Positions 19,650 through 46,500 of a stretch of DNA of 64,000 nt are shown in pieces. This DNA is from Lunularia cruciata (taxonomy: Eukaryota; Streptophyta; Marchantiopsida; Lunulariales; Lunulariaceae): the NCBI GenBank assembly GCA_948567375.1, contig OX419760.1:8556001-8620000 (forward strand), in the 5' to 3' direction. Numbering within the stretch: position 1 is the stretch's first letter; each line of letters starts with the position of its first letter. A program made the translations under genes and the position numbers. The notes beneath the pieces were generated by a model. It was not told where the DNA came from, searched no databases, and saw only the letters and a list, made by a program, of their open reading frames with translations.

Positions 19650-20035
19650 TGTGGTGCCCACATTTTTTGTTTTTTTCAAAATAAAGGAGAAGAAGTGTAT
19701 AGAGAAGTCGGATTGTGCCAATATGGCCGAAGAAGACGAAGAAAACTGTCTTTGGGGTGAAACCCGAAGTAAAGTGACTTCGGGTCATAAGGCAAAGTAC
19801 TCTGAAATGCCGTGTCAGCATACAATACGAAGTAAATTGTCTTCGGCTCGGGGGGAGCTCAACCCGAGGCAAAGACAGTCTAACAACCTTTCGTTGGGGC
19901 GAGAAATTCAAGAAGGGGCCGTTTCAAAATTGGCGGCTCATACGCGTGAAGGTGGGGTGACAATGACGGGTGCATGCCGGAGGTGTGATTTCTTGGTAGA
20001 AACTCGAAGCGACGGAAGACGAAGAAGTGCAACTC

Positions 20036-20043
20036 TATAAAAA
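20036..20043 (+). promoter_or_regulatory. TATA-like box upstream of the LTR frame (5' LTR)
   Basis: TATAAAAA lies 20 bases upstream of the ATG at 20063 and is conserved in the other LTR at 37796-37803. It could drive the LTR frame, although the spacing leaves little or no 5' untranslated region. Confidence 0.45.
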
Positions 20044-20062
20044 TTGAAACTGCAACGACAAA

Positions 20063-22634
20063 ATGTCAAGCAATTTTCCTTCGCCGTTGAGGAGTCATCT
20101 TGCAGGTGATCGGGGAAAGGGAAATAGAGTTGGACTCGTGTTAGTGCATAAGGGAGAAGTCGAGGGAGAGAAATCGAGAGACCAAAAGAAAGCAAAAGAG
20201 ATGGGAGGAGGGAAGAAGAACTCCAAATTTGCAGTGAGAAATCATGCAATTTGGAGATTAGATATAGTAGCAAGGATCAAAGTCTTGAGCCGACTTCAGA
20301 TCACTTTTCTGGCATGGAACTGGAACGTAAGTTTTCCAGGATTCATGACAGAAATCATCGAGAGTAAATGTCTCAATGGTCCCGAGGAAGAAGAGAAAAG
20401 AGGAAATCCGGCTCGCTGGACAGAGTCGGATTGGAGACCTGTACTCGGGAAGGAGGCAGGCTCGGAGCAGGGAGCCACGTTCTTGGGGAAAGGAGAGATA
20501 GCCCAAGAAACGCAGGAGGTGAGAGATGCCTTCTCGTCGAAGAGGACGAAGAATGGGTATAAAGTTGAGAGCTATAAGGACCCAGTGAGGAGAGGAATTG
20601 TGAGTGCACTAATAGCCCTCCTGAAGCCGGAGAGAACTACCTATGTGATGAAACACCAAGCGGTGTTCTTTCACAAGTTATTTGCAGGAGAACCGATAAA
20701 TTGGGCAAGGTGCTTTCATGGAAGAACGAGGCAGATGGTGTGGAATCTGTGGGATAAGTCGCCTCCACACTACATCGTACCATTTGCAGCCCATTTTTAC
20801 CTCGGGTTAAATCTACTCAATGTGGCTGAGCGTAATCGAATGGTGTCTCATTTCCATCCTGATTTGAGAAGAGAAGTCAACGCGGAGGAGTAGCAATACA
20901 TTCTCCAAATCCGGAGCACAGATGATTACTACGCGAAGATAGGGAAGAACGTGGAGGTCGTTGAAAGTACCCCGACGAAGAAGAGAACTTGGCAAGCAGG
21001 AGCCGAAGAAAGCAAGAAACCTTGGAAGATGCAGAAAAATAACCTGAGGCGAGGAATGGTGGTGATTGAGTCGGAGGATGAAGAATCAGAAGGCGAAGCC
21101 AAGCTCAAGACGGAGGACTCGGACCGTGAGGAGGAACCTGAGCTGACATTGCAAAGTGGAGATACAAGCAGTGACAGTGAGGAAGGAGGAGAGATGACAT
21201 AGGCACCAGCGGCTGAAGAATACAAAGAAGAAATGCAAGCCGAGGTAGACACCGAAGACAATGCGGCGCTGGTAGACGAAGTACCAGTGTGCGAGGAGAA
21301 GAAGATCGCAGTACAGCGAGGAATTTGCTCGAGACGTAAGGCAAAGTGTGAAGCGGGACCGAGTAGAGTGAAGGAAGAGGTAGAAGGGAGCTCGGGCAGT
21401 GACGCATCGATTCCGATACGAAGACTCCAGAGAAGAAGGCGAGTATCGGGAGAACATGAAGAAGGAAGAGAGACCACTCCGCGGGAGGACAAAGGTATCA
21501 GTAATGGAGTAGATTACCTGCAGATGGTAGTATGCTTGCTGTTGGTGAAGATGGAGAAGAAGAAGAAGGAGATGCAGTCTACTTGTCCAGAGGTAAAAAC
21601 TGTGTTGCAGGTCTTATCAAGATTGGAAGAAGAAAACTCGGAGTTAAAGAAGAGTATAACCCGAGGAGAGGAAGAGAGAGAAGTACTGCGAGCAGAAGTA
21701 GTCAAGAGGAGTCAGGTAATCAAAGACCTGAAGAGAGAAGTGAGTTATCGAGAAGATCTTGCAAGGAAGAGTGACATCGCAAGGGAGAGACAGGTAGCGG
21801 AGCATGAAATCTTGAAGCAGCAGTTTGCTGATTCAAGAGTCAAACTCATCCATGCTATGGCGGGGTAGCATCGAAGGATCAAGAGCTTGATCGAGTGATG
21901 GAGAGTATGGAGGAGAAGAAGCAACTCTGGCAGCGAGAGTTGGCTGCGAGATATAGAGAAGAAGAGAGATTACGAGACTTACTTTGTAATCAGGAAGAGA
22001 AGGTTGCACAGAAGGAGAAAGAGAAGGAAGCGGTGAAGGCTGAATTCGAAGAAGAATTGGCGATGTACAGAGAAGAATGGCTTGCAGATCGGGAACAAGA
22101 AAGGAAGACAAGATTGGAGCCATTGTAGGAGATAGTCCTCAGGGTAAACGCGATGTTAAGTACAGAGGCCAGCGTTCAAATTGAAGAAGCGCGTTTGCAT
22201 GAGTTGAAGTTGTTGGTGCAGGAGACGAGGCGAAGACAAGTGAAAGATACAGATTTGAATGCCTTGTTGATTAAATTGAGAACTCGTGTAGATAGGAAGA
22301 TCTTAGAAGTAGAAGACAATATCGCGATTAGATTAACTTAGTGAGAATAGAGTTAGAAAAGCTTCGGCGGGATGTTAAAGCAAAACCCGAAGTAGATAAC
22401 ATCGGGATCCAAATGTCTTCGGAGTTGCCCTCAGAGACATTAGAGAAGAGTGGGTCAAAGGATGAGGAGTTAGATAGATTACCCACTAGTGCAATTTCAG
22501 ATCAGGAAAGAGAATTGCTAGATCTGGTAGAAGATGTAGGAGTTGTGAAACCCGAGGACAGAATAGTAGGAAGTAAAGTTACTTCGGGTTCGGGTTTGAA
22601 AGCCGAGGAAGAAGTAGACATCGGATCGGATTAG
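20063..22634 (+). pseudogene. LTR-encoded coiled-coil protein, broken copy in the 5' LTR
   Basis: Same frame as 37823-40396 in the 3' LTR, but with more damage. Stops lie at about 20891 (CAG to TAG by comparison), 21200 (TCG to TAG) and 22126 (CAG to TAG). Single-base deletions lie near 21864 and 22336. The N-terminal domain (20063-20893), acidic middle (20951-21202) and coiled coil (21500-22340) are all still readable. As both LTRs are copied from one template at insertion, the 3' LTR shows that every one of these lesions arose after insertion. The frame was therefore essentially open when B landed. Confidence 0.85.
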
Positions 22635-22750
22635 TAACCGATTTGAGATTTGAAGGGGCAGATATGAAAGGTTGCATTGTCATTTTGGATCTGTAGGTTA
22701 GAACAATTGTTGTAGAACGGTATAGTTGTTAGAACTGTCGATTTGATCAC

Positions 22751-22758
22751 TATTTAAG
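22751..22758 (+). promoter_or_regulatory. Second TATA-like box, downstream of the LTR frame (5' LTR)
   Basis: TATTTAAG lies about 120 bases past the end of the LTR frame and is conserved at 40513-40520. If it drives the genomic RNA, then U3 spans about 3.1 kb and the LTR frame is a U3 gene, with R-U5 of about 0.65 kb. Confidence 0.4.
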
Positions 22759-23434
22759 AGTGGCATTCGTAGGAAATTGTTGTTCAGTGCTCATTATTTC
22801 TGAGAATAGATAAAGCGAAGTGTTGTGAAGCAGTGCTCGTCGCTTGAGCTTGATTCCGAGTATCAACTTTGTAATTGTGTTTGTGAGTGTTTGGAGAAAT
22901 TCAAAGTGCAAGTCAGAGTGCTTGTTGGATGTTGGATTCCACAGCCTTGATCTTCATTCTATGTGTTTGATCCTGAGTGAAGTGCAATCGAAGCAATGCC
23001 TTGACAAATCTGAGAGGAACTGTAGTGTTGGTCGTATTCTGCATTTGGGAGTGTAGGGCGAAGTTGATGTGAAGCAATTTCAATCGAGGAAGTTGTGCCT
23101 TCAATGGAAGGGTGGAATACAATTCTGAGGCGAAGTCGTTTTGCAGTGAAGTGCCATTTTCGGGAGAGCCTGAATCATCACAATCAAGATTGTTTGGAAA
23201 GATTTGATGGAGTTGTGATTATGGAGTGTTAATTTGTGACAAGACTGCAAGTCAGTGCTTGTTACTCTCTTCTGGGTGTGGTTTCTACCTGAGAGACTAA
23301 AGAAGGACTCAAGAAGAACTGAAATTGTTACTTTGCTTCGTATTTGGACATTTTTGACTCGTATCTCTACGTGAACAAACTTTACTTACCCGATTACCGC
23401 AAAAGTGATATTTGCCGGGTTGTCACATGATTTT

Positions 23435-26182: not shown

Positions 26183-26186
26183 TTTT

Positions 26187-26271: not shown

Positions 26272-26403
26272 ATGAGAGCTCACTTGGAGAGAACATTAGG
26301 AGAGGAGAGGGCTGAACTTATGTTAGAGAACCAAGATCCATTTGTATACCCTGTAGTTCATTATGATGTCTTTGAGGTGATTTTGTACATCTTGTACACA
26401 TGA
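26272..26403 (+). CDS. Small conserved leader frame of family A
   Basis: A 43-codon frame starting MRAHLERTLGEERAELMLEN and ending FEVILYILYT, directly after the primer site. Copy A3 keeps the same frame on the minus strand (start MRAHLERTLG, end FEVILYILYI) with a small in-frame deletion and substitutions. That suggests the frame was translated or otherwise constrained. The last 23 residues resemble those at 27626-27690 (PFVFPRVDYSQMVLVMYI here, PFVYPVVHYDVFEVILYI there). No known domain is recognised. It could be a regulatory upstream frame or the first exon of a spliced product. Confidence 0.4.
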   Translation: MRAHLERTLGEERAELMLENQDPFVYPVVHYDVFEVILYILYT

Positions 26404-27534: not shown

Positions 27535-27768
27535 TGATGGAGATAATCTTTCAACTTATGGATAAACTATCCATGAGAGTTAGATTAATATGCACTCTAG
27601 GATTTGATGTTGCTATAGAAATCTTGGAGCAACCTAAACCTTTTGTGTTCCCTAGAGTGGATTATTCTCAGATGGTGTTAGTCATGTATATATCTATTAG
27701 TAACAGAGTGAGAGAAAAGAAAAGAGAAAAAAAAAATTGAGAGAAAAGAAAGATAGTGAGGGGTTAAG

Positions 27769-29385: not shown

Positions 29386-32300
29386 CCAGTAGGGGTGATG
29401 GATAAGGTGGTAGTTTCAGTTATGGGAGTTCAAAATCTCATGACTTTCCAAGTCTTGAAGGATTCAAGCTATGACTTACTTCTTGGGAGGCCATGGTTGA
29501 GAGCAGCACGCACAACTGATCGATGCCACAAAGGGTACTTGAGGATTGGGCCATCAAACCATAGAGTCACTGTTCCTGTGACTAACACCACCAACACTTC
29601 ACATTCAGATACACCATCTTCTGATTATTGGGAATCAGATTCTGAAGAAGGAGCTTCAGGTGTGGACACAAGCATGGAAGAGGAGACTTCCACGGAGGAG
29701 GATGAATCTGAATCTGAATCAGATGTGTATCCTTTGTGTGCTATGGATTTTGCACCTAAGCCAGAGGTTTTGAAGGACCCAGATAAATCACCATTGACAC
29801 TTGAGGAGGTAGAGAGAAGGTTATCTACCCTCAAGTATGGCCCAAATGTTACCAAGGAGGAGAAGGTGAGATTTGAGGAGATTTTCCGCAAGTTCATCCA
29901 TGTGTTTGCTTTTAGTTACAAGGATTTGAAGGAAGTCACCTTGGAGGAGCACAAGATAGAGGTGGAGTCACATGCAAGACCAATCCGCCAAAAGCAACGT
30001 CGCATTAGCCCACCAATATCTTTGGTTGTGAAGGAGGAGATTGATAAGCTCAAGGAGGTTGGATTTATCTTTGAGGTGGAGAATTCAGAATGGGTGTCTC
30101 CAATTGTCATTGTGAAGAAAAAGAATGGCAAACTTTGGGTATGTGTGGATTACAAGAAGCTCAATGCTGTTACCAAGAAGGACTACTACCCATTGCCATT
30201 TATTGATGAAATCTTGGAGGAAGTTGCAGGTCATGAGAGGTACAGTTTTGGAGATGGTTATAGTGGATATAACCAAATCAAGATTGCACCAGAGCATCAA
30301 CAACTCACCACATTCACCACACCTTGGGGAACTTACGCTTTCAAGGTCATGCCTTTTGGGCTTTGCAATGCTCCAGCCACATTCCAACGGTTCATGAACA
30401 AGGTATTTGAACCTTTCATTGGGAAATTTGTGAGAGATTTCATTGATGACTTTTGTGTCTATGGGAGCAAGGAGGAGCACTTTGAGCACCTAATCAAAGT
30501 CTTGCAATGCTTGGATGAGGCAAATGCATCACTCAACCCAGAGAAGTGCATTTTTGGATGTGAAGAAGGTCTACTTTTGGGGCATATCATTTCCAAGGAT
30601 GGAATAGCAGTTGATCCTGAGAAGGTGAGGAAAATCTCAGACCTTCCATTCCCTTCAAGCTTGACAAAGTTACGCCAATTCTTGGGGATGGTTGGGTACT
30701 ATAGGAGGTTCATCTTCTCATTTTCCAACAAGGCTTATGCATTGACCATCTACATGAAGAAGGGTGTAGATTACATGGTGATTTTGGAAGACAAGGAGGC
30801 TCTCAAAGCTTTTGAGGAGCTCAAGCAATCCCTTGTTGTAGCTCCAATTCTTGCTAAACCTGATTGGAGTAAACCTTTCATCCTCTACACTGATGCTTCT
30901 AATGTAGCTATAGGATGCACTCTTAGTCAATTAGACCAAGATGGGCATGATCATCCAATAGCTTATGCTAGTAGGCAGATAGTTTCAGCAGAGAAGAACT
31001 ACTCTGTCACGGAGAGAGAAGGGTTGGCAGTGATCTTTGGTCTCAAGAAGTTTAGACACTACTTGATTGGAGGGAAAGCCACCATTGTCACGGATCACAA
31101 GGCTTTGAAGTACATCTTCAACAAGCCTAATGTTGAAGGGAGACTAGCAAGGTGGATGATACTCTTGTCTGAGTATGACTACACCATTGAAGATAGGCCA
31201 GGAAAGAAACATGCAAATGCTGATTTATTATCTAGAGCCTATGATTATGATGGAGATGAGCCAGTGGATGATTCCTTCCCGGATGAGGAGCTCATGACAA
31301 TCTCAGTCACTCAAGAGGTTCCAATGGAGTACAAGGAGATTGTGGATTTTGTGACAAAAGGTAACTATCCAAAAGGGATGCATGCTAGGGAGAGGAAGGC
31401 CCTTGCAGCAAGATCTAGACCTTACACAATGGTGGAGGATATTCTTTTTCACCAAGGAGCAGATGGTCTACTTCGAAGAGCAATGGGTAAGGAAGAGTCT
31501 ATCCTACTCATAAAGGAGTTTCATGAAGGTTTAGTATGTGGAGGACACTTTGCAGGAAAGGTGACTGCTTTCAAGATTCTAGATGCAGGTTACCATTGGA
31601 GAGGGATTTTCAAGGATTGTCTTGATTATTGCAAAACTTGTCATGTTTGTCAAGCTTTTGCTAGAAAGTCTACATCCACTCCACCACTTAGATCAATTCC
31701 ATTGCTATGACCTTTTGAGAAGTGGGGAATTGATTTTGTAGGTCCTCTCAATAGAACCCCAAGGAACAATCGGTACATTGTGGTAGTTACTGATTACCTT
31801 ACCAAGTGGGTTGAGGCTAGACCATTGAGGGACAAGAATGAAGATGAAGTGGGTAGATTTCTTTATGAACGCATTATCACTAGGTTTGGATGCCCTTTGG
31901 AGTTGGTTTCTGATAGAGGAGGAGAGTTTACAGGAAGCATTACTACAGCCATGCTACAACATTTCTCTATCACACATAGAGTAACTACATCCTATAAGCC
32001 AAATTCCAATGGCTTGGCAGAGAGAACCAATCAGACCTTGTGCATGATGTTGGCCAAAGATGCAGAAATGGAGGGGGCTAAACATCATTGGGACAAGAGG
32101 ATTCATGCAGTTTTGTGGGAGTATAGGACAACCATGAAAACTTCCACTGGATATTCTCCATTTCAATTGGTGTATGGTATTGAGTCTACCTTACCTATTC
32201 ACTTTGATCTTCCTACCTTCCAAAGCATTCATAGGAGATTGAAGAAAGCACAAGGAGGTGATGCAGAGAAGTCAAGGAAGGATCAACTCATGGAGTTGGA

Positions 32301-32585
32301 AGAGGCAAGAGCAGTTGCTATGGTTTGAGTGGAGCAAGCCCAAAGGAAACAAAAGGAGAGCTATGATAAGAGGCAAGACAAGAAGAAGGTGGAGCCTTTC
32401 AAAGAAGGTGATTGGGTAATGTTGTTCGATTCAAGAGAGTGCAAAAGAAGTTTTTGCCTAAGTACTTTGGACCTTTCATAGTGGAGAAGGTGTGGGGCAA
32501 TTACACCTATGATCTCAAGGAGTTGGGAGGAAGATACTTTGATAGGATTAACCATGATAAGTTGAAGATGTACCATAGAAGGTAG
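29386..32585 (+). pseudogene. A2 pol: protease end, RT, RNase H, integrase
   Basis: The protease ends with LLLGRPWL. The RT palm (about 29980-30640) has WVCVDYKKLNAVTKKDYYPL, MPFGLCNAPATFQRFMNKVF and catalytic FIDDFCVYG. RNase H (30870-31180) has LYTDASNVAIG and VTDHKAL. The integrase zinc finger has the HHCC pattern with CKTCHVC at 31630. A TGA at 31708-31710 sits where an Arg would fit. The core then shows GIDFVGPL, VSDRGGEF and NGLAERTNQT, so all three acidic residues are present. A second TGA at 32326-32328 is shared by A1 and A3. A 10-base deletion near 32430 shifts the C-terminal GPF region. There is no chromodomain. The frame ends at 32585. Confidence 0.93.
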
Positions 32586-32624
32586 AGAGACCTTCACTTT
32601 GAGGACAAAGTGAAAACTTAGTCC

Positions 32625-32633
32625 GGGGGTAAA
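32625..32633 (+). other. Polypurine tract of A2
   Basis: GGGGGTAAA lies directly before the 3' LTR and primes plus-strand DNA synthesis. The inverted equivalent in A3 follows its 3' LTR at 41557. Confidence 0.7.
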
Positions 32634-33311
32634 TGCAACACCCATTTGTGCATGTGTGTGGTATTGTGATATTTAGCTTGGTATAGCAAGTACTTAAGAG
32701 ATATTATTTATATAGAGATAAAAGATGGTTCTATATTAGTCATGGTTAGCTAAAGTTAGTCATAGCTAAGATAGATGGGACCTTACTTTAGAGGAAGTAG
32801 AAAAGATGAGCACCACTATTTTGGATTTTAGTGTGTTGACTTGGTATTATTCCTAGGTGTTTGGCTTTGGGGAAAGAGTTGAGAACTCTTGGGCCCGCAA
32901 GCCTTTTTGTTTTGGATTCTTCTTTAGTCCAAGGATAGCCCATGTGAAGGAATCCTTGCTTTAGTGGTTGGGTCAAGATAAGGGGAATATGCCCATGTGA
33001 ATGGATATTCCTTTCTACTTTTTGACTTTACTTGACTTTTAGTCTAGTAACTTGAGTTACTACGGTAATTAGTAACTTTGGTATGTAACTATTTCACAAG
33101 TATATAAACAAGGGGTGAGGAGGTACTCATCATCCTTTCATTTGCAACTATCTCTCTCTCATTGAATTCTCTAGTGAGCAATGTCTTGAGTCTTGGAGTG
33201 TTAGCCTTGGAGGAGTATGATGGAGTTGGGATTCCTGCCTTCTTAGTCCATGGTGCGCTACCATAATAGCCATCAGAGGTTCATCTTGAGTGAGAGACAG
33301 GCCGGCTCACA
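32634..33311 (+). repeat. A2 3' LTR
   Basis: Begins TGCAACACCC (TGTAACACCC in the 5' copy) and ends GGCTCACA, followed by GGCC, the start of B's resumed frame. Confidence 0.97.
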
Positions 33312-34249
33312 GGCCAGACCTTGAAATTTTGAAAGTTGAGACACGCTCCACCAAGAAGAAGCGTGATCCCAAAGAACTGAGTACGACCTCGTCGTCTTCC
33401 CGAAAGGCAAAGAGACAGCGCCCAAAAGCAATTCTTTCGGCCAAGGAGGAAAAGATCCTTGCAAAAGCTAAAGCTAAAGCCTTGCAGAAAGAATTAATGG
33501 AGGCATTACTCAGGGCTCGGGAACTGAGTTTGGAAGAAGAGACGAAGACGAAGTCTCCAATTTTTCCGGCGGACATCCGATCCGAAGTAAAGGGTCTGAT
33601 TCAAGCCGAGGTAGGCCAACCCGAGGAAGCTCGGGTTAAGGCCATCAGCAAGCCCATCACCATTTTGAAGCGTCCCGAAGTCAAGAGGGAGCATGGAGAG
33701 TCCACGGACTCAAAGCCAAAGACGAAGATGGTCAAATTGGGAGGAGTTCCCCAATATGATATTGTAGCCGACTTGGCCACCACAAATGCCAATGTTACAT
33801 TTAAGCAATTGTGGGAAGATAACAAGCTATACAAGAGACAGCTTAATTCGGCTCTCAAGAAGGTGAGGTCGATGTCAAAGAAGGACCTACCTGCTATCTA
33901 TCGTATTGAACAAGAAGATTTGGGATCTCCCGAGGTAGACGCGGAGATTGCAGGTTGCATGATCACATCGATACCCATTGACTCTGGGTCCGGTATGAAT
34001 GTCATGACTGAAGATATTGCGAATCGACTCGGGTATCATACGTTTGAACCAACACCCCGAGTTTTGAAGTTTGCAGACCAAACTAGGAGACGGCCCTTGG
34101 GCATGTTGTTGAACATTACCACGATCATTGGAGGGGTACCCTTCAAGTTGAATTACATCGTGTTGCGGCCAGTAACAAAAACTGGTTACCCTTTGTTGAT
34201 CGGCAGACCCTGGTTGTATAGTGCCCAAGTTGTAGTGGATTGGCATTAG
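33312..34249 (+). pseudogene. Element B gag-pol continued: linker and protease
   Basis: Resumes B's frame after A2 (DLEILKVETRSTKKKR). A basic, Lys- and Ala-rich linker follows (33430-33530), then GVPQYDIVADLATTNANV and the protease. The catalytic motif IPIDSGSGMNVM lies at about 33975, and LLIGRPWLYSAQVVVDWH ends the domain. The TAG at 34247-34249 fits a CAG glutamine codon. The protease would cut the polyprotein into its working parts. Confidence 0.9.
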
Positions 34250-36244
34250 CAGAAGTTAAGATTCAAGGACATTTCATCCAAGGATCAGAAGCTGGTGACT
34301 GTGAGTTGGACAAAGGTTCCCCATCTCGGGGAAACAAGTTCGTCAAAAGAGGAGGACGAGTCCGAAGATTCATCGTCTTCGTCTTCAGACAAATCCGAAG
34401 AAGAAGTCCAAGTTAATTACTTGGAATGCTACGAGGTAGAGGCTGACGACGAAGATCCATATGACCTCGCCTCAGGTGAACCTGACTTGGAGGGAGGGGG
34501 TTTGATGGCCGCTCGCCTCGGGATAAGCCAAGTAAGCCACGTTGAAGGAGTCATCAACCCTGATGACTGTCAAGAGGTGTTACTCACTGAAGGAAAAATT
34601 TTAAAAATCTCAAAGACAGTTACTTCGAAGGAGTTGGCAGGATACACTGCCCTGTTTATAGAATTCCAGGATGTATTTGCCTGGTCGATTGATCAAATGC
34701 CGGGTATTCCATGAGAATTTGGAAAACACCGGATTGATTTGATTGAAGGTGCAGTTCCGGTTCGGCAGCGACAATACCGCCTGAACCCGAAGTACTCGCT
34801 CTTGGTAAAAGATGAAATCGATAAGTACTTAGGGGCCGGAATCATCTTCCCTATCTTAAGCAGTGAATGGGTCTCCCCCATTATCATTGTCCCAAAGAAG
34901 AAAACAGGGAAGATCCGAGTGTGCCAAGACTTCCGAAAATTGAACGCAGTCACAAGGAAAGATCATCATCCCTTGCCTTTTACCGATACAATCTTAGATC
35001 AGGTAGCTGGGCATCCTTGTTATAGTTTTCTCGATGGATTTTCAGGGTACAATCAAGTATCCATTTGAGAAGAAGACAAGGATAAAACTACATTCACGAC
35101 CAATTGGAGCACTTTCGCTTACAATCAAATGCCCTTTGGGTTGTGTAATGCTCCCGCTACTTTCCAGCGGATGATGAATTCGATCTTCAAAGATTTCTTG
35201 CGCAAATTTGTCGAAGTTTTTATTGATGACTTTTGTGTGTTTGGACAACGGGATGTACATAGAGATTACCTTCGCCAAACGTTTGAAAGGTGTCGTTTTG
35301 CCGGCTTGTCATTACACCCGGAGAAATGCTTCTTTGCAATGAAGGAGGGAATTCTTTTGGGGCATCGGGTGTCAAGCCGAGGTATTGAAGTCGATGTTGA
35401 GAAGGTTAAAATAATCGCAGCTTTGGAATCCCTAAAGAACATCCGGGAGCTGAGAGCCTTCTTGGGACATGTTGGATATTACAGACGCTTTGTGTCAAAC
35501 TATGCAGTGCTTGCTGCACCACTTACAAAGCTTCTGAAGAAATCCGAAGACTATCTGTGGGAAGCACATCAAGAAGAAGCCTTCCAGGTGTTGAAGAAGA
35601 AACTGGTTGAAGCACCAGTCATGAGGGCCCCAAATTGGGACGTCCCTTTTCATGTGTATGTGGACACTTCGTCCATGGCCATCGGGGTTGTCTTAAGTCA
35701 GAAGGACGAGAAGAAGAAAGACTACCCGGTGTATTATGCCAGCCGACAACTTTCAGTTTCTGAAAAGAATTATTCGACGAAAAAAAGAGAAGCACTTGGA
35801 ATGGTGTATGCCTGCAAGAAATTTTGGCATTATTTGTTGGGGTATGAGTTTGTCTTCTATGTTGACCATTATGCATTGCAACATCTGGTCAAGAAGGCAG
35901 ATTTATCGGGACGAATTGCAAGATGGATCTTGTTATTACAAGAGTTCACGTATACTGTACAAGTGAGGAAGGGAGCTTCGCATTCGAATGCGGACTTCCT
36001 GTCCAGGTTAGACACTCAAGACCAGGAGTGGGAAATTGACGATCGGTTCCCTGACGAAGAGTTGTATCACTTATCAGCAATGAGAAGTACGAGGTATGCA
36101 GATGAATATAATTATCTGAATACTCTCCATTGTCCTAAGGGGATGGATCCGGAACAGCGGGCAGTCTTTCTCCAAAAAATGGGGCCGTACCAGCTTAAAC
36201 ACAACATTTTATTTAAGATGGGCGAAGACGAAGTACTTCGGTGA
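34250..36244 (+). pseudogene. Element B reverse transcriptase and RNase H
   Basis: After an acidic Ser-rich linker, RT starts near 34740. It shows SSEWVSPIIIVPKKKTGKIR, VCQDFRKLNAVTRKDHHPLP, MPFGLCNAPATFQRMMNSIF and catalytic FIDDFCVFG at about 35215. RNase H follows (VYVDTSSMAIGVVLSQ, KREAL, YVDHYAL), then the connection ASHSNADFLSRLD. In-frame TGA codons lie at 34712 and 35066, and another ends the section at 36242-36244. Each fits a former CGA. These enzymes copy the genomic RNA into DNA. Confidence 0.93.
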
Positions 36245-36247
36245 TGC

Positions 36248-37398
36248 TTGGAGTCATACGAAGTAGGAGGAGTAATTGAATCTTTACACTCCGAGGCATC
36301 GGGTGGACACTATGCTCTGAAGAATACTGTAAAGAAAATTCTTTCGGCAGGGTATTGGTGGCCTACAATGTACAAAGATGTACATGCTCATATTCAAAGC
36401 TGTGATGCGTGTCAGAGAACGGGGAGGCCGACGGCCACTTCTCAATGGCCTTTGAAACCAATTTTGCCTTTGGCCCCCTTTGAGAAATGGGGGATTGATT
36501 TTGTGGGTCCCATTCAACCAGTGACCCGAGTCACAAGAAAGCACTATATTTTGGTTTGCACTAATTACGCTACCAAGATGGTTGAAGCGGAAGCAACTCG
36601 CAGAGATGATGCTGAAATTGTGGCGGAATTTTTCTTTTGAAACATCATCTCCCAATATGGGTGTCCTCTGGAATTGGTCAGTGACCAAGGAACACATTTT
36701 TTGAACTCTGTAATGGAGGAGTTAACCAAGTATTTTCAGATTAAACATTGGAAGAAGACTTCTTATAACCCAAAAGTGAATGGCTTAACGGAAAAGCGAA
36801 TGGGTTACTTTGTAAAATTTTGAATAAGGTGACTGTCAATTATGCCTATGACTGGGATACAAAATTACCAGCCACGTTATGGGCCTATCGGACGACAGAG
36901 AAGATTACAACCAAAAAAACCCCATACTTCTTGACATATGGCTTGCATCCCATACTGCCAGTTGAATTTGAAGTTCCGACTTATCGAGTCCTGTGCGAAG
37001 AACGAATGTCGGAAGAGGAAAGTCAGGATCTTCGGATTCATCAACTGATGTGGTTAGAAGAGAAAAGAGACGATGCAATGCAAACCACGAAAGAAGTACA
37101 AGCACAGAGGAAAGTCAGGCACGATCAGAGAATCAAGCCTGTGACTGTACGAGAAGGGGATTTGGTTTTGTTATATGATAATCGCCAAATATTTTTTCCA
37201 GGCAAGTTGCATTTGAGATGGATGGGTCCCTATCGAGTTCGTCATCTTTACAAAAATGGATCCATGCAACTCGTCGATTTGGAAGGTAATCCTTTTGCCA
37301 CTCGAGTAAACGGGTGGAGAGTTCGGAGATATTGGACCATAGACTCGGAAGTTCCTAAGACACCCAAGATTTATGTTCGCGGGGACGCTCACATTTGA
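36248..37398 (+). pseudogene. Element B integrase
   Basis: The zinc-binding HHCC domain is at 36285-36430 (HSEASGGHYALKNTVKKIL, CDACQRTG). The core follows with GIDFVGPI, a TGA at 36638-36640, LVSDQGTHF and NGLTEK, so D, D and E are all present. A one-base deletion near 36798 shifts the frame. The C-terminal part (36820-37398) has ATLWAYRTTEKI and LHLRWMGPYRV, the GPY/F motif. There is no chromodomain. The frame ends at 37398 inside the polypurine tract. Confidence 0.93.
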
Positions 37399-37409
37399 GG
37401 GAGGGAGTA
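37397..37409 (+). other. Polypurine tract of element B
   Basis: GAGGGAGGGAGTA abuts the 3' LTR start TGTGG. It is the plus-strand DNA primer and confirms the LTR boundary. Confidence 0.9.
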
Positions 37410-37795
37410 TGTGGTGCCCACATTTTTTGTTTTTTTCAAAATAAAGGAGAAGAACTGTATAGAGAAGTCGGATTGCGCCTGTATGGCCGAAGAAGACGAA
37501 GAAAACTGTCTTCGGGGTGAAACCCGAAGTAAAGTGACTTCAGGTCATAAGGCGAAGTACTCTGAAATGCCGTGTCAGCATACAATACGAAGTAAATTGT
37601 CTTCGGCTCGGGGGGAGCTCAACCCGAGGCAAAGACAGTCTAACAACCTTTCATCGGGGTGAGAAATTCAAGAAGGGGCCGTTTCAAAATTGGCGGCTCA
37701 TATGCACGAAGGTGGGGTGACAATGACAGGTGCATGCCGGAGGTGTGATTTCTCGGTAGAAACTCAAAGCGACGGAAGACGAAGAAGTGCAACTC

Positions 37796-37803
37796 TATAA
37801 AAA
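37796..37803 (+). promoter_or_regulatory. TATA-like box upstream of the LTR frame (3' LTR)
   Basis: TATAAAAA, 20 bases upstream of the ATG at 37823 and identical in the other LTR. Confidence 0.45.
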
Positions 37804-37822
37804 TCAAAACTGCAACGACAAA

Positions 37823-40396
37823 ATGTCGAGCAATTTTCCTTCGCCGTTGAGGAGTCGTCTTGTAGGTGATCGGGGAAAGGGAAATAGAGTTGGACTTGTG
37901 TTAGTGCGTAAGGGAGAAGTCGAGAGAGAGAAATCGAGAGACCAAAAGAAAGCAGAAGAGATGGGAGGAGGGAAGAAGAACTCCGAATTTGCAATGAGAA
38001 ATCATGCAATTCGGAGATTAGATATAGTAGCGAGGATCGAAGTCTTGAGCCGACTTCAGATCACTTTTCTGGCATGGAACTGGAACGTAAGTTTTCCAGG
38101 ATTCATGACAGAAATCATCGGGAGTAAATGTCTCGATGGTCCCGAGGAAGAAGGGAAGAGAGGAAATCCGGCTTGCTGGACAGAGTCGGATTGGAGACTC
38201 GTACTCGAGAAGGAGGCAAGCTCGGAGCAGGAAGCCACGTTCTTGGGGAAAGGAGAGATAGCCCAAGAAACGCAAGAGGTGAGAGATGCCTTCTCGTCGA
38301 AGAGGACGAAGAATGGGTATAAAGTTGAGAGCTATAAGGACCCAGTGAGGAGAGGAATTGTGAGTGCACTAATGGCCCTCCTGAAGCCGGAGAGAACTAC
38401 CTATGTGATGAAACACCAAGCGGTGTTCTTTCACAAGTTATTTGCAGGAGAACCGATAAATTGGGCAAGGTGCTTTCACGGAAGAACGAGGCAGATGGTG
38501 TGGAATCTGCGGGATAAGTTGCCTCCACACTACATCGTACCATTTGTAGCCCATTTTTACCTTGGGTTAAATCTGCTCAATGTGGCTGAGCGTAATCGAA
38601 TGGTGTCTCATTTCCATCCTGATTTGAGAAGAGAAGTCGACGCGGAGGAGCAGCAATACATTCTCCAAATCCGGAGCACAGATGATTACTACGCGAAGAC
38701 AGGGAAGAATGTGGAGGTCGTTGAAAGTACCCCGACGAAGAAGAGAACTCGGCAAGCAGGAGCTAAAGAAAGCAAGAAACCTCGGAAGATGCAGAAAAAT
38801 AACCTGAGGCGAGGAATGGTGGTGATTGAGTCGGAGGATGAAGACTCAGAAGGCGAAGCTAAGCTCAAGATGGAGGACTCGGACCGTGAGGAGGAACCTG
38901 AGCTGACATTGCAAAGTGGAGATTCGAGCAGTGACAGTGAGGAAGGAGGAGAGATGACATCGGTACCAGCGGCTGAAGAATACAAAGAAGAAATGCAAGC
39001 CGAGGTAGACACCGAAGACAATGCGGCGCTGGAAGATGAAGTACCAGTGTGCGAGGAGAAGAAGATTGCAGTACAGCGAGGAATTCGCTCGAGACGTAAG
39101 GCGAAGTGTGAAGCGGGACCGAGTAGAGTGAAGGAAGAGGTAGAAGGGAGCTCGGGCAGTGAGGCATCGATTCCGATACGAAGACTCCAGAGAAGAAGGC
39201 GAGTATTGGGAGAACATGAAGAAGGAAGAGAGACCACTCCGCAGGAGGACAAAGGTATCAGTAATGGAGTAGATTACCTACAGATGGTAGTATGCCCGCT
39301 GTTGGTGAAGATGGAGAAGAAGAAGAAGGAGATGCAGTCTACTTGTCCAGAGGTAAAAACTGTGTTGCAGGTCTTATCAAGATTGGAAGAAGAAAACTCG
39401 GAGTTAAAGAAGAGTATAACCCGAGGAGAGGAAGAGAGAGAAGTACTGCGAGCAGAAGTAGTCAAGAGGAGTCAGGTAATCAAAGACATGAAGAGAGAAG
39501 TGAGTTATCGAGAAGATCTTGCAAGGAAGAGTGACATTGCAAGGGAGAGACAGGTAGCGGAGCATGAAATCTTGAAGCAGCAGTTTGCTGATTCAAGAGT
39601 CAAACTCATCCATGCTATGGCGAGGGTAGCATCGAAGGATCAAGAGCTTGATCGAGTGATGGAGAGTATGGAGGAGAAAAAGCAACTCTGGCAGCGAGAG
39701 TTGGCTGCGAGATATAGAGAAGAAGAGAGATTACGAGACTTACTTCGTAATCAGGAAGAGAAGATTGCACAGAAGGAGAAAGAGAAGGAAGCGGTGAAGG
39801 CTGAATTCGAAGAAGAATTGGCGATGTACAGAGAAGAATGGCTTGCAGATCGGGAACGAGAAAGGAAGACAAGATTGGAGCCATTGCAGGAGATAGTCCT
39901 CAGGGTAAACGCAATGTTAAGTACAGAGGCCAGCGTTCAAATTGAAGAAGCGCGTCTGCATGAGTTGAAGTTGTTGGTGCAGGAGACAAGGCAAAGATAA
40001 GTGAAAGATACAGATTTGAATGCCTTGTTGATTAAATTGAGAACTCATGTAGATAGGAAGATCTTAGAAGTAGAAGACAATATCGCGATTAGATTAGACT
40101 TAGTGAGAATAGAGTTAGAAAAGCTTCGGCGGGATGTTAAAGCAAAACCCAAAGTAGATAACATCGGGATCCAAATGTCTTCGGAGTTGCCCTCAGAGAC
40201 ATTAGAGAAGAGTGGGTCGAAGGATGAGGAGTTAGATAGATTACCCACTAGTGCAATTTCAGATCAGGAAAGAGAATTGCTGGATCTGGTAGAAGATGTA
40301 GGAGTTGTGAAACCCGAGGACAGAATAGTAGGAAGTAAAATTACTTCGGGTTCGGGTTTGAAAGCCAAGGAAGAAGTAGACATCGGATCGGATTAG
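37823..40396 (+). CDS. LTR-encoded coiled-coil protein of element B (about 857 codons, one stop)
   Basis: Chosen start is ATG 37823 (MSSNFPSPLRSRLVG). Upstream in-frame codons open to a GTG at 37787, but the 5' LTR copy is closed there. The only interruption is TAA at 39998-40000, where the 5' LTR has CAA. Residues 1-300 look globular (ITFLAWNWNVSFPGFMTEII, NGYKVESYKDPVRRGIVSAL, HKLFAGEPINWARCF, FVAHFYLGLNLLN). Residues about 300-500 are acidic with basic, NLS-like patches (KKRTRQAGAK, RRLQRRRR). Residues about 500-725 form a long coiled coil (LSRLEEENSELKKSITRGEE). There is no zinc knuckle, protease or polymerase motif and no transmembrane segment. It lies wholly inside the LTR, outside gag-pol. 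It vaguely recalls accessory proteins of plant retroelements, but I do not recognise the family. A decayed homologue is at 12500-15892. Confidence 0.8.
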
Positions 40397-40512
40397 TAAC
40401 CGATTTGAGATTTGAAGGGGCAGATATGAAAGGTTGCATTGTTATTTCAGATCTGTAGGTTAGAACAGTTGTTGTAGAACGGTATAGTTGTTAGAACTGT
40501 CGATTTGATCAC

Positions 40513-40520
40513 TATTTAAG
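40513..40520 (+). promoter_or_regulatory. Second TATA-like box, downstream of the LTR frame (3' LTR)
   Basis: TATTTAAG, matching 22751-22758 in the other LTR. It is a candidate start for the genomic RNA. Confidence 0.4.
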
Positions 40521-41189
40521 AGTGGCATTCGCAGGAAATTGTTATTCAGTGCTCATTATTTCTGAGAATAGATAAAGCGAAGTGCTGTGAAGCAGTGCTC
40601 GTCGCTTGAGCTTGATTCCGAGTATCAACTTTGTAATTGTGTTTGTGAGTGTTTGGAGAAATTCAAAGTGCAAGTCAGAGTGCTTGTTGGATGTTGGATT
40701 CCACAGCCTTGATCTTCATTCTGTGTGTCTGATCCTGAGTGAAGTGCAATGGAAGCAATGCCTTGATAGATCTGAGAGGAATTGTAGTGTTGGTAGTATT
40801 CTGCATTTGGGAGTGCAGGGCTAAGTTGATGTGAAGCAATTTCAATCGAGGAAGTTGTGCCTTCAATGGAAGGGTGGAACACAATTCTGAGGCGAAGTCG
40901 TTTTGTAGTGAAGTGCCATTTTCGGGAGAGCCTGAATCATCACAATCAAGATTGTTTGGAAAGATTTGATGGAGTTGTGATTATGGAGTGTTAATTTGTG
41001 ACAAGACTACGAGTCAGTGCTTGTTACTCTCTTCTGGGTGTGGTTTCTACCTAAGAGACTAAAGAAGGACTCAAGAAGAACTGAAATTGTTACTTTGCTT
41101 CGTATTTGGACATTTCTGACTCGTATCTCTGTGGGAATGAACTTTACTTACCCGATTACCGCAAAAGTGATATTTGCCGGGTTGTCACA

Positions 41190-41194
41190 CTGAG
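41190..41194 (+). repeat. Target site duplication of element B, right copy
   Basis: CTGAG, identical to 19645-19649. Confidence 0.95.
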
Positions 41195-41215
41195 TGAGAG
41201 ACAGGCCGGCTCACA
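41195..41215 (+). repeat. Family A1 LTR, last 21 bases
   Basis: TGAGAGACAGG then CCGGCTCACA completes the A1 LTR that was split by element B. It matches the LTR end at 33291-33311. The next base starts an inverted family A LTR fragment. Confidence 0.93.
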
Positions 41216-41556
41216 GACCCAACTATTAAGTCAAGGATTCCTTCACATGGGCTTTCCTTAGACTAGAAAAGAATCCAAAACAAAAAGGCTTGCGGGCCCA
41301 AGAGTTCTCAACTCTTTCTTCAAAGCCAAACACCTAAGAATAATATCAAGTCAACACACTAGAACCCAAAATAGTGGTGCTCATCTTTTCCACTTCCTCT
41401 AAAGTAAGGTCTCTTCTATCTTAGCTATGACTTACTTTAGCTAATCATGACTAATGTAAAATGGTCCTTTATCTCTATATAAATAATATCTCTCAAGTAC
41501 TTGTAATACCAAGCTAAATATCACAATATCATACATATGCACAAATGGGTGTTACA
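41216..41556 (-). repeat. A3 3' LTR, truncated
   Basis: On the minus strand it begins TGTAACACCC at 41556, just after the polypurine tract, and stays colinear with the A LTRs for 341 bases before stopping at the A1 LTR end. Its U5 and promoter half are missing. Confidence 0.9.
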
Positions 41557-41569: not shown

Positions 41570-44378
41570 TAAGTTTTCACTTTGTCCTCAAAGTGGTTTC
41601 TCTACCTTCTATGATACATCTTCAACTTATCATGGTTAATCCTATCAAAGTGTCTTCCTCCTAGCTCCTTGAGATTGTAGGTGTAATTGCCCCACACCTT
41701 CTCCACTATGAAAGGTCCAAAGTACTTAGAAAAAAACTTCTTTTGCACTCTCTTGAACCAAATAGAATCAAACAACATCACCTAATCACCTTCTTTGAAA
41801 GGCTCCACCTTCTTCTTGCCTTGCCTCTTGTCGTAGCTCTCCGTTTGTTTCCTTTGGGCTTGCTTAACTCAAACCATAGCAACTACTCTTGCCTCTTCCA
41901 ACTCCATGAGTTGTTCCTTCCTTGACTTCTTTGCATCACCTCCTTGTGATTTCTTCAATCTCCTATGAATGCTTTGGAAGGTAGGAAGATCAAAGTGAAT
42001 AAGTAAGGTAGACTCAATACCATATACCAATTGAAATGGAGAATACACAATGGAAGTCTTCATGGTTGTCCTATACTCCCACAAAACTGCATGAATCCTC
42101 TTGTCCTAATGATGTTTAGCCCCCTCCATTTTTGCATCTTTCGCCAACATCATGCACAAGGTCTGATTGGTTCTCTCTGCCAAGCCATTGGAATTTGGCT
42201 TATAGGATGTAGTTACTCTATGTGTGATAGAGAAATGTCGTAGCATGGCTGTAGTAATAATTCCTGTAAACTCTCCTCCTCTATCAAAAACCAACTCCAA
42301 AGGGCATCCAAACCTAGTGATAATGTGTTCATAAAGAAATCTACCAACTTCATCTTCATTCTTGTCCCTCAATGGTCTAGCCTCAACCCACTTGGTAAGA
42401 TAATCAATAACTACCACAATATACCAGGATACTTCATACCATGACAATAGGAGTATCATCCACCTTGCTAGTCTCCCTTCAACATTAGGCTTGTTTAATA
42501 TGTACTTCAAAGCCTTGTGATCCATGACAATGGTGGCTTTCCCTCCACTCAAGTAGTGTCTAAACTTCTTGAGACCAAAGATCACTGCCAACCCTTCTTT
42601 CTCTGTGATAGAGTGTTCTTTTCTGCTGAAACCATCTGCCTACTAGCATAAGCTATTGGATGATCATACCCATCTTGGTCTAATTGACTAAGAGTGCATC
42701 CTATGGCTACATTAGAAGCATCAATGTAGAGTATGAAAGGCTTACTCCAATCAGGTTTAGCAAGAATTGGAGCTACAAGGGATTGCTTGAGCTCCTCAAA
42801 AGCTTTGAAAGCCTCCTTGTCCTCTAAAATCACCATGTAATCTACACTCTTCTTCATGCAGATGGTCAATGCATAAGCCTTGTTGGAAAATGAGAAGATG
42901 AACCTCCTATAGTACCCAACCATCCCCAATAATTAGCATAACTTTGTTGAGCTTGAAGGGAATGGAAGGTCTGAGATTTTCCTCACCTTCTTAGGATCAA
43001 CTACTATTCCATCCTTGGAGATGATGTGCCCTAAAAGTAGACCTTCTTCACATCCAAAAATGCACTTCTTTGGGTTGAGTGATGCATTTGCCTCATCCAA
43101 GCATTGCAAGACCTTGATTAGGTGCTCAAAGTGCTCCTCCTTGCTCCCATAGACACAAAAGTCATCAATCAAGTCTCTAACAAATTTCCTAATGAAAGGT
43201 TCAAATACCTTGTTCATGAACCGTTGGAATGTGGCTAGAGCATTACAAAGCCCAAAAGGCATGACCTTGAAAGTATAAGTTCCCCAAGGTGTGGTGAATG
43301 CGGTGAGTTTTTGATGCTCTGGTGCAATCTTGATTTGGTTATATCCATTATAACCATCTCCAAAACTATACCTCTCATGACCTACAACCTCCTCCAAGAT
43401 CTTATCAATGAATGGCAATGCGTAGTAGTCCTTCTTGGTAATAGCATTGAGTTGCTTGTAATCCACACATACCCAAAGCTTGCCATTCTTTTTCTTCACA
43501 ATGACAATTGGAGATACCCATTCTGAACTCTCCACCTCAAAGATAAATTTGGCCTCCTTGAGCTTGTCAATCTCCTCCTTCACAACCAAAGATATTAGTG
43601 GGCTACTGCAACGTTGCTTTTGGTGGATTGGTCTTGCATGTAACTCTACCTCTATCTTGTGCTCCTCCAAGGTGACTTCTTTCAAATCCTTGTAACTAAA
43701 AGAAAACACATGGATGAACTTGCAAAAAATCTCCTCAAATCTCACCTTCTCCTCCTTGGTAACATTTGGGCCATACTTGAGGGTAGCTAATCTTCTCTCT
43801 ACCTCCTCAAATGTCAATGGTGATTTATCTGGGTCCTTCAAAACCTTTGGCTTAGGTGAAAAATCCATAGCATACAAGGGATACACATCTGAATCCAATT
43901 CAGATTCATTCTCCTCCATGGAAGTCTCCTCCTCCATGCTTGTGTCCACACTTGAAGCTCTTTCTTCAGAATCTGATTCCCAATAATCAAAAGATGGTGT
44001 ATTTGAATGTGAAGTGTTGGTTGTGTTAGTCATAGGAATTGTGACTCTATGGTTTGATGGCCCAATCCTCAAGTAGCCTTTGTGCCATCAATCAGTTGTG
44101 CATGTTGCTCTCAACCATGGCCTCCCAAGAAGTAAGTCATAGCTTGAATCCTTCAAGACTTGGAAAGTCATGAGATTTTGAACTCCTATAATTGAAACTA
44201 CCACCTTGTCCATCACTCCTACTAGTCGAACTTGTTGTTTGTTTGCCATGCTCACCACAAATGTTGAAGGTCTTGTGGGTATCATACCCAACTTCTTCAT
44301 CAACCTTTCTGACATGGCATTCATTGTTGATCCTCCATTAACCAATGCATCCTTGATGTTATGACCATTTACTCTCAC
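41570..44378 (-). pseudogene. A3 pol: protease, RT, RNase H, integrase (internally deleted)
   Basis: Protease start near 44370 (INGHNIKDALVNGGS-like, catalytic Asp to Asn) with LLLGRPWL at 44120. RT at about 43550-42970 has VCVDYKQLNAITKKDYYALP and LIDDFCVYG. RNase H follows (YIDASNVAIGCTLSQLDQDG, VMDHKAL). At about 42440 the frame jumps from RWMILL to YIVVVIDYLTKW. This drops the RNase H tail, integrase zinc finger and first part of the core, and leaves about 25 bases of unrelated filler. The rest of the core has NGLAERTNQT. The in-frame TGA shared with A1 and A2 is present near 41870. The C-terminal GPF domain ends near 41592. Confidence 0.9.
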
Positions 44379-45856
44379 ATCAATCTTGGAGGCATATTCA
44401 CAAGCCTCTCATGGTGTTGGTTTGGCATCCACCACCCCCGTTGATACTGGAGCTTTTGCCTTCTTCTTCCTCTTGCTCCTTGTAGAAATCAAACCACTAT
44501 TAAGCTTCTTTCTCAAAGTAGGATTCAAAGCAATCAATTGCCCCACTGTGATGTTAGCCTTGTGACTACCAACATCCTCCAAGACATTGTAGTTCCATTG
44601 TTGCTTTGAGATCAAGAAGTCCTCCATCCCCAACTTCTTCCTTGGAGTCTTTGTTGTTGATGGTGTTGAAGTGCTTGTGCAAGTGCTCCTAATAGGCATA
44701 GGAGTATCTTGGCTAGGAGTAAATCCTTGAGAAGAGTGCACATCCTCTGCAAACCGAGCTCTCTTCTTCTCTTGTGCCAAAAGCTCCAAATTAAGACTCT
44801 TGGAGTTTGAGCACTCTCCTTTCTCATACTTGCTCTCAACCACATCTATTGATGTTATCTCCTTACCTTTATTTAGATTATGCGCCACTTGGGTTTCACT
44901 ACCTCCCTCTTTCCCTCTATTGGCTCTTTCATAACCCCTTCTTCCATGGTAAGTGGAATTTGGGCAATTCCTTAGGATGCGACCTCTTCCTCCACAACCA
45001 AAACAATTTCTCTCATTAAAATTGTTGGTTAGTTTGCCTCCTCTATATGGATAACTTCCATAACTCCTAGGTCCTCTCCCCACATTCTGATCCACCTCTC
45101 TCTTCTCCCATAGTTGCACCACATTGATCTTGAGATTTGCAAGTTGTTCTATGATGATTTGAAGTGGATCCTTTGGTGGAGGTGCAAGAACTATAGCAAC
45201 TACTACTTGTGGTGCAATCCTTGCACCAAAGTATTAAAAGTTCCACCATACTTGTAACCTTGAGGAGGATGCACAACCTCCTTCACCACCAAATCACTCT
45301 CATCCCCTTCTAAACTCTCCTCCATATGAATTCCAATCTTGATAGCTTCAACCTTGGAAGAAGGTTTCTCATATCTCACCTTGCTTCTAATTTGTGGTCT
45401 CAATCTTCCCATAAAATTCTCGATGAGCATGGCCCCTATGCCAATCATAGTAGTCTCCATATCATCCCCCCCCCTTCCTCAACACTATGCAAAATCTGGA
45501 CTCTTACTTCTCCACTCTTTCCACATAGACTCTCACTTTCTCTCCATCTCCTTGTTTAAGAAAGGTAACCTCACTCATCAATCTCTCCTAACTCTCATCA
45601 CTCTCATCCGGAAGAAAGTTCTCAATGAGTGTTGAAGTCAAACTCTCCTAAGACTTTTCTTCCCCATCTCTCCTCTCTCTCTTTTGGTATTCAGACTCAT
45701 ACCATGTAAGTATTGCATCCTCAAAGAACTTTGGTAATAATTAGGCTCACTCATTCTTCCTCCTCTAATTGTGTCCTATGCAAGATCTCTTGAAGTCTCT
45801 CACAAAGGCCTCCACATCTTCTCCATCCTTGCCAAAGAAAACCGGAAGTTCTCCAT
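44379..45856 (-). pseudogene. A3 gag
   Basis: Minus-strand ATG at 45854-45856 matches the A2 gag start. The capsid region is broken by frameshifts but readable (MGRLRPQIRSKVRYEKP). The second half (44409-45122) is open and carries the knuckle CFGCGGRGRILRNC, whose His is replaced by Arg. It keeps CAA and CGA at the two places where A2 has TAA and TGA, which proves the direction of those A2 changes. Confidence 0.9.
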
Positions 45857-46083
45857 CTTAACTCCTCACTATCTTTCTTTTCTCTCAAATTTTTTTTTCT
45901 TTTCTCTCACTCTATAACTAATAGAGTATACACATGACTAACACCATCTGAGAATTATCTACCTTAGGGAACACAAAAGGTTCAGGTTGCTCTAGAATTT
46001 CTATAGCAACATCAAATCCTAGAGTGCATATTAATGAACTCTCATGGATAGTTTATCAATAAGTTGAAAGATTATCTCTATCA

Positions 46084-46500
46084 CTAATCTTGAGAAATAG
46101 TTGATGAAGGTGATAGTATTTCTATAGTTGTACTAAGACTCTCTCCAAGATCCTTTACCAAAGTCTCCAAAAGTGTTTTTACTCCACTACACTCATGTCC
46201 TTTTGGAAGTCCTTCCACTCCACAAACCTCACACAACTCCTTGGTCTTAGATCTTCTCCCTCCTAATCTTGGTGAAGAAGGTCCAACATGCAAACCCAAG
46301 TCAAGTAAGCCTCTCTTTTCTCTCAATCTCTTGCTCTCAAAATTCAATGGATATGAACTTGCCTTATGTCCCTTCTGTCCACATAAAAAGCACTTATACT
46401 CACTCTTTCTTCCCAATGGTGTAGGTTTTTGGATCCTCTCAACACTCTTTTCAAATTTTATTCTAAACTCTCTTCTCCTCAAATCCATCCCTATAATCAT
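46084..46500 (-). pseudogene. A3 copy of the extra zinc-knuckle frame
   Basis: Minus-strand frame of 138 codons from MIIGMDLRRREF to a stop at the same place as in A2. The first knuckle reads CFLCGQKGHKASSY, so its last Cys is lost. The second cluster CEVCGVEGLPKGHEC is unchanged, and the segment around it (GLLDLGLHVGPSSPRLGG) is identical to A2. Conservation between two otherwise diverged copies supports a real coding frame in the ancestor. Confidence 0.6.

Follow-up and report, generated by a model that had tools for sequence, protein, structure and literature searches.

A selected protein gene inside the long terminal repeats of a Ty3/gypsy retrotransposon of the liverwort Lunularia cruciata

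RESULTS

An open frame in both long terminal repeats of one element

We analyzed a 64,000-nucleotide window of the Lunularia cruciata genome (assembly GCA_948567375.1, contig OX419760.1, positions 8,556,001 to 8,620,000 of the forward strand; coordinates below are those of the window). It contains a retrotransposon in which each long terminal repeat (LTR) carries one long open reading frame (ORF), here called the LTR gene. The features of the element are as follows.

19645-19649 (left) and 41190-41194 (right), + strand: perfect target-site duplication CTGAG
19650..23427, + strand: 5' LTR, 3778 bp, starting TGTGGTGCCC and ending TTGTCACA (TG..CA)
20063..22634, + strand: LTR gene of the 5' LTR, the same frame with three stops and two single-base deletions
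23435-23452, + strand: primer binding site-like sequence TGGCACCGCTGCCGGGGA, 3' of the 5' LTR
23516-25501, + strand: gag, in open pieces 23516-24568 and 24572-25501, with matches to capsid PF03732 (E value 3e-11) and zinc knuckles PF00098 (E value 4e-9)
33314..37395, + strand: pol pieces for protease, reverse transcriptase (RT), RNase H and integrase, from Pfam matches on open pieces
37397-37407, + strand: polypurine tract GAGGGAGGGAG, 5' of the 3' LTR
37410..41189, + strand: 3' LTR, 3780 bp, starting TGTGGTGCCC and ending TTGTCACA
37823..40396, + strand: LTR gene of the 3' LTR, 857 codons if started at codon 1, 811 if started at Met47 (37961)

The two LTRs are direct repeats of 96.8% identity over 3784 aligned positions. 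Their TG..CA ends, the 5-bp duplication, the primer site, and the purine tract are those of an LTR retrotransposon, and the order of gag followed by protease, RT, RNase H, and integrase, read from Pfam matches to open pieces, is that of Ty3/gypsy elements; the element at 19650-41189 is a Ty3/gypsy retrotransposon. The pol matches to PF00078, PF17919/PF17917, and PF17921 exceeded the curated Pfam cut-offs, while PF13650 and PF00665 (protease and integrase core) fell below them. A first-pass annotation, made from the letters of the window, had recognized the LTRs by their ends, polypurine tract, and perfect duplication, all of which we located; it also named a tRNA-Asp primer site, which makes TGGCACCGCTGCCGGGGA a putative site of the tRNA-Asp type. 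For the RT piece, the named matches nearest the top were from the liverworts Calypogeia fissa, Riccia fluitans, and Marchantia polymorpha. Gag-pol is split by a second gypsy element nested at 25504-33311, the 679-bp ends of which are 98.7% identical; the LTR protein had no tblastn match in the LTRs of that nested element.

Each LTR of the outer element holds a single frame of about 857 codons outside gag-pol, as first annotated. The 3' LTR frame is broken by one TAA at 39998-40000, and the stops of the 5' LTR frame lie at codons 277, 380, and 689. Every lesion of the pair is private to one LTR, which bears out the earlier assignment of the lesions to the time after insertion. Over the same 2574 bases of a naturally open copy, 71 and 45 stops interrupt the other two forward frames (19 to 24 in the reverse frames), and 857 open codons have a single-base expectation of 7e-25. 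The LTR frame is therefore not a product of chance.

The LTR gene recurs at many sites, often in solo LTRs

Searches of the 566-Mb genome assembly found the frame at many sites (at least 62 scored matches in one search and at least 150 in another) and in the LTRs of several subfamilies, so that it is not a capture unique to this copy, an outcome that the first-pass annotation had named as one that would overturn its view. For comparison, we assembled 22 copies, comprising the window's two LTRs and the 20 matches that scored best after these among a set of 41, which is not a random sample. Both ATGs, those of codons 1 and 47, and the terminal stop (codon 858) are kept in all 22. Two counts weigh against a working gene. 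Only one of the 22 copies is free of stops and indels, the other 21 having a stop or frameshift (with frameshifting indels in eight), and only four of the 150 matches listed for the N-terminal domain, from 23,516 candidates, lie in an 878-codon stop-free frame.

Among the 20 fetched LTRs, thirteen are solo and bordered by 5-bp duplications, of which 12 are perfect and one matches at four of five positions; six lie within longer elements, and one is cut short. L030, a member of the diverged subfamily 2 introduced below, is also a solo LTR, with CTTTG on both sides. The 21-base 3' end of the LTR occurs exactly 3,633 times in the assembly and the 24-base junction of LTR and primer site 490 times (reversed controls, 0 in both cases); these patterns differ in length and conservation, the 3' end being common to subfamilies, and they count LTR ends rather than intact frames, so the excess of single LTRs that they indicate is only rough. 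As for full elements, the internal region of about 6.17 kb that is left after subtraction of the nested element predicts a spacing of 9.95 kb between the two LTR genes, and at least eight same-strand pairs 9.88 to 10.15 kb apart were present among the 150 matches listed.

The LTR gene is under purifying selection between subfamilies

The ratio of replacement to silent substitution rates (dN/dS) was obtained by codon comparison on DNA alignments, with the +1 and +2 frames as off-frame controls and with W3 (the window LTR) and L012 as references. Between diverged subfamilies, dN/dS was 0.14 to 0.27 in frame and 0.51 to 1.42 out of frame. Compared with L015b, an 89%-identical LTR with its own primer site directly after it, W3 gave 0.23 (bootstrap 0.19 to 0.30; 856 codons), and comparison with four other diverged copies gave 0.15, 0.14, 0.24, and 0.18. 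The protein of subfamily 2 (L030 with its kin L013 and L031) is about half alike to that of the window, and comparison with L030 gave 0.17 for the N part and 0.25 for the C part (off-frame, 0.74 to 1.37). For distant pairs, Jukes-Cantor-corrected dS is near saturation and the exact ratio is soft; L015b (dS 0.34) and L028r (0.58) are unsaturated. A protein-guided estimate, a method biased by its alignment, agrees for the diverged copies. The frame differs from that of L015b by one single-base indel in 2256 bases, and a 24-nt indel lies near its start in two distant copies.

Constraint is unevenly distributed. The ratios were 0.12 to 0.15 against L015b and 0.08 to 0.09 against L009r for codons 47-300, 0.35 to 0.37 and 0.16 to 0.20 for codons 301-480, 0.17 to 0.18 and 0.13 to 0.14 for codons 481-770, and 0.20 to 0.36 and 0.33 to 0.39 for codons 771-857. 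Constraint is thus strongest on the N-terminal domain.

Since the in-frame ratios of 0.14 to 0.27 stand against 0.51 to 1.42 out of frame, we conclude that the LTR frame is a selected protein gene and neither a chance frame nor a one-copy capture. A fossil host gene or an open frame devoid of function would suit the broken state of 21 of the 22 copies and the lack of a homolog in the searched libraries, but it is highly improbable given the contrast with the off-frame ratios and the presence of the frame in LTRs of several subfamilies. The annotation had proposed an undescribed retrotransposon accessory protein, and both the between-subfamily ratios and the recurrence in many LTRs support that proposal. 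It had suggested a test for dN/dS below 1 between insertions and had considered that random stops with a ratio near 1 would refute it; stops do vary among insertions, as decay after insertion would give, and between subfamilies the ratio is 0.14 to 0.27.

Two observations limit the case for selection on the frame. The 413 bases 5' of the frame differ from those of L015b by only 8 to 10%, compared with 18 to 19% at third codon positions, and so provide no neutral yardstick. Moreover, within subfamily 2, dN/dS (0.43 to 0.83) overlaps the off-frame values (0.38 to 0.75) and, not being separated from these controls, is uninformative. For the element's other genes, protein-guided ratios were 0.07 to 0.42 for gag and protease between families, where dS was computable, and 0.39 to 1.41 for gag-pol pieces within the family; by the latter range, recent copies are dominated by decay in gag-pol too. 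A 36-codon gag piece beside L015b gave 0.92.

A contrast between private and shared variants was considered as evidence of selection and dropped. Among the 22 copies, the replacement-to-silent ratio was 2.6 among private variants and 1.2 among those present in at least three insertions (Fisher p 0.0005; for C/T changes alone, p 0.018), in a count that left out 35 stop-making variants, 20 ambiguous columns, three-base columns, and the two-insertion class (40 and 35). However, 141 of the 145 shared variants are C/T transitions, and because recurrent deamination is likely the contrast was not used. As side observations on the same set, variants common to at least three insertions are nearly all C/T or G/A transitions, and stops recur at the same codons, as expected from methylation-driven decay.

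TATA-like boxes and the probable position of the gene in U3

Two TATA-like boxes flank the LTR gene. Boxes and start spacings were read by consensus rules.

37796..37803, + strand: TATA1-like box TATAAAAA, 27 nt 5' of codon 1 and 165 nt 5' of Met47
40513..40519, + strand: TATA2-like box TATTTAA, 3' of the gene
40548..41189, + strand: putative R-U5 (repeat and 5' unique regions), starting 35 nt after TATA2, placed by a rise in identity and a loss of tree structure near LTR position 3135

TATA1 is kept in 21 of the 22 copies. In two copies of subfamily 2, a TATAAAA box precedes the matching first ATG by 34 nt and the match to Met47 by 162 to 163 nt; in L009c the box is altered. TATA2 is intact in 19 of the 22 and in all six LTR ends aligned across subfamilies.

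The sequence relationships of the LTRs change after TATA2. In 60-base steps, the identity of W3 to L013, L030, and L031 is 0.42 to 0.73 over LTR positions 2301-2960, 0.72 to 0.83 up to 3140, and 0.77 to 0.97 thereafter. The ORF supports the clade of W3, L015b, and L009r in 99 of 100 bootstraps, region 2961-3134 does so in 79, and region 3135-3780 in 4; for the clade of L013, L030, and L031 the values over the same three regions are 100, 71, and 10, and for W3, L015b, L013, L030, and L031 together they are 0, 2, and 8. In 3135-3780, W3 differs by 10 to 12% from L013, L030, and L031 and by 16% from L009r, the reverse of the ORF tree. That the last ~645 bases of L013, L030, and L031 are so close to the window LTR, when their genes are only half alike in protein, suggests mosaic LTRs. 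Minus-strand strong-stop transfer is a known step of retroviral replication, and the simplest reading would be that R-U5 was repeatedly exchanged between co-packaged RNAs at this transfer. With such exchange, R would begin about 35 nt downstream of TATA2, and the gene would lie in U3 (the 3' unique region). The gene lies inside the LTR, and TATA2 and the shift in bootstrap support suggest that it lies inside U3.

Several points weigh against this placement. The rise in identity to L013, L030, and L031 begins partly at 2961 already, L009r and L015b show no identity step at the boundary, and in the R-U5 tree no alternative clade is strongly supported. Conserved function could explain part of the R-U5 signal. 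Taken further, the likeness of R-U5 might reflect functional constraint (packaging or strong-stop synthesis) and not exchange, in which case the U3/R boundary would not be located. This alternative, which the short branches and weak resolution of R-U5 and the two LTRs lacking an identity step favor, seems to us somewhat unlikely: in 3135-3780 the distances of W3 run in reverse of the ORF tree, and the bootstrap value of the clade of L013, L030, and L031 drops from 100 to 10 of 100 even though 28 compared pairs remain different at 8 to 21% of sites.

We regard it as likely that the LTR holds an independent gene of the Ty3/gypsy retrotransposon, most likely within U3. TATA1 would drive a short mRNA for a protein of 811 to 857 residues from LTRs, solo ones included, and TATA2 would start the genomic RNA; the gene would be carried near the 3' end of the genomic RNA and doubled at reverse transcription. 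By consensus rules, a transcript from TATA1 would begin at codon 1 or right beside it, an unusual position for a start codon, which counts against such an arrangement. It is also conceivable, but distinctly unlikely, that the genomic RNA itself starts at TATA1, the frame being the 5'-proximal gene of a full-length RNA with a very long R and TATA2 being incidental. TATA1 is indeed nearer the TATA consensus and is kept in slightly more of the copies, but with a start there gag would follow a long gene at a distance of more than 3 kb, the tree structure changes after TATA2 and not after TATA1, and TATA2 is kept in all six ends aligned across subfamilies.

Two candidate translation starts

The protein may start at either codon 1 (37823) or Met47 (37961). 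In favor of Met47, comparison with L015b showed 2 silent and 14 replacement changes in codons 1-46 and 42 and 28 in codons 47-300 (Fisher p 0.0007), subfamily 2 retains the ATG that aligns with Met47, and transcription from TATA1 would begin next to codon 1. In favor of codon 1, two distant copies gave dN/dS of 0.37 to 0.47 over codons 1-46, and the first 11 codons form a kept motif, MSSNFPSPLRS, that reads MTSNFPLPLRS in L009c (5 codons differ silently and 2 by replacement, compared with 2 and 7 in the off-frame control) and MSSRYPLPIQS in L031 of subfamily 2 (4 and 5, compared with 1 and 9). The first ATG of L031 is in frame with the gene, but its 12th codon is a stop; the first ATG of L030 is out of frame. 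The motif at codon 1, kept into subfamily 2, argues against taking Met47 as the only candidate.

Protein features and a possible regulatory role

The LTR protein comprises a conserved N-terminal domain, a basic and then acidic linker, and a predicted coiled coil. Its description in the first-pass annotation as a long coiled-coil protein fits only in part. The heptad pattern is significant at residues 477-561 alone (reached by 0 of 2000 shuffles) and not at 561-645 or 645-770 (541 and 767 of 2000 shuffles); residues 536-775 are almost free of proline and glycine. A basic-rich stretch at about 301-345 could be a nuclear signal. A single-sequence AlphaFold model of residues 50-320 was discarded for its low confidence (pLDDT 37.6).

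Searches of 5.8 billion proteins found no relative of query P0001 (7,993 candidates scored, E value 1e-3) or of P0002 residues 56-300 (569 candidates, E value 0.1); this collection includes Marchantia, Riccia, and Calypogeia, but element proteins are possibly masked in it, so the result is no proof of absence from liverworts. There was no relative in PDB, PHROGs, or IMG/VR, Pfam gave only below-cut-off matches (E value 0.017 or worse), and NCBIfam gave one chance-like match (E value 0.066). For the plant transposon profile PF20167 there was no match, but neither was there one in the control genomes.

Tentatively, the LTR protein may be an oligomeric nuclear regulator that acts in trans, in transcription or anti-silencing, on the element's LTRs. 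We weakly prefer a regulator to a structural protein because of the gene's apparent own promoter in the LTR, the conserved N-terminal domain, the basic and acidic stretches, and the coiled coil. Against it counts that a nuclear or regulatory role is inferred from composition and position only. A structural or ribonucleoprotein component (an assembly partner or chaperone) packaged with the genomic RNA strikes us as unlikely: the heptad stretch and charged linker would suit assembly or RNA binding, but the element also has an ordinary gag that encodes capsid and zinc knuckles, and one would hardly expect a structural protein to be encoded in solo LTRs under a promoter of its own. With the same caution as for the regulator, the LTR might be seen as a self-contained two-promoter cassette, in which the first promoter would express a trans-acting protein from LTRs, perhaps thousands of them solo, the second would give genomic RNA, and strand transfer would swap R-U5 between subfamilies and leave each U3 gene intact.

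Comparison with known systems

Mouse mammary tumour virus (MMTV) sag is a protein gene in the U3 of the LTR and is present in both LTRs. The LTR gene resembles it in being a protein gene within an LTR, its U3 placement being inferred here, and differs in belonging to a plant Ty3/gypsy element of unrelated biology. The annotation drew this parallel by position only, and rightly so: the protein shows no Sag homology, with no significant Pfam match. In foamy viruses, an internal promoter expresses the accessory regulator Tas apart from the genomic RNA; the likeness is a regulator with its own promoter, and the positions of promoter and gene differ.

Plant LTR retrotransposons carry additional conserved ORFs of unknown function beside gag-pol (Vicient and Casacuberta 2020, PMC7264820). 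As treated there, those ORFs lie in the internal region, unlike the gene described here, and the phrase "in the LTR" and five other phrases are absent from the whole text of that article. The ORF0 of the grass elements Retrosat2, RIRE3, and RIRE8 lies upstream of gag-pol and diverges faster than gag-pol (PMC3485330). These elements are similar in that their LTRs reach ~3 kb or more and that they carry an additional gene of unknown function, but in the relevant passages of that paper ORF0 is a query separate from the LTR; in the window, only 88 bp separate the 5' LTR from the gag frame at 23516, leaving no ORF0 of the grass type. The same paper describes two TATA boxes in the BARE LTR, as seen here, and its passage on them mentions no gene between them. 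Retand antisense ORFs, which are conserved, possibly regulatory, and equipped with a TRP28 domain, lie between pol and the 3' LTR according to the relevant part of PMC11963269; they are antisense and internal, whereas the LTR gene is sense and inside the LTR. Nor is there a sense gene in the env-like position between pol and the 3' LTR, as an open pol piece reaches 37395, 14 bp before the LTR. Marchantia has Tat clades without an additional RNase H, as stated in part of PMC10508981.

Within the limits of the search, this is apparently the first LTR-resident accessory gene seen in a plant retrotransposon; no paper describing a plant LTR with a gene inside was recognized among open-licence PMC full texts, a limited negative. 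Plant LTRs are viewed as regulatory DNA, and their solo forms as scars. With a selected protein gene in the LTR, a solo LTR may still make an element product, and if the two-promoter arrangement is true, solo LTRs with open frames would be working gene copies and not dead remnants. The LTR gene alters the reading of LTR function and suggests an explanation, open to test, of why some LTRs are very long. There may in addition be a link to the Ty3/Gypsy bursts through which, as reported in part of PMC9985172, the L. cruciata genome became almost twice the size of those of other studied liverworts.

Neighboring insertions and remote relatives

The element apparently sits close to one end of an LTR that belongs to the family of the nested element: its left flank (18980-19651) matches such an LTR, and a 26-bp match resumes at the right (41191-41216). 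A reverse copy at 42434-48083 is 91% identical to 25517-31178 of the nested element. On the minus strand at 15692-15814, a short piece with 44% likeness to LTR-protein residues 152-191 represents a remote and degraded relative. A further distant relative, 36% alike over 63 residues, was found between LTR copies at L010:2130-2394.

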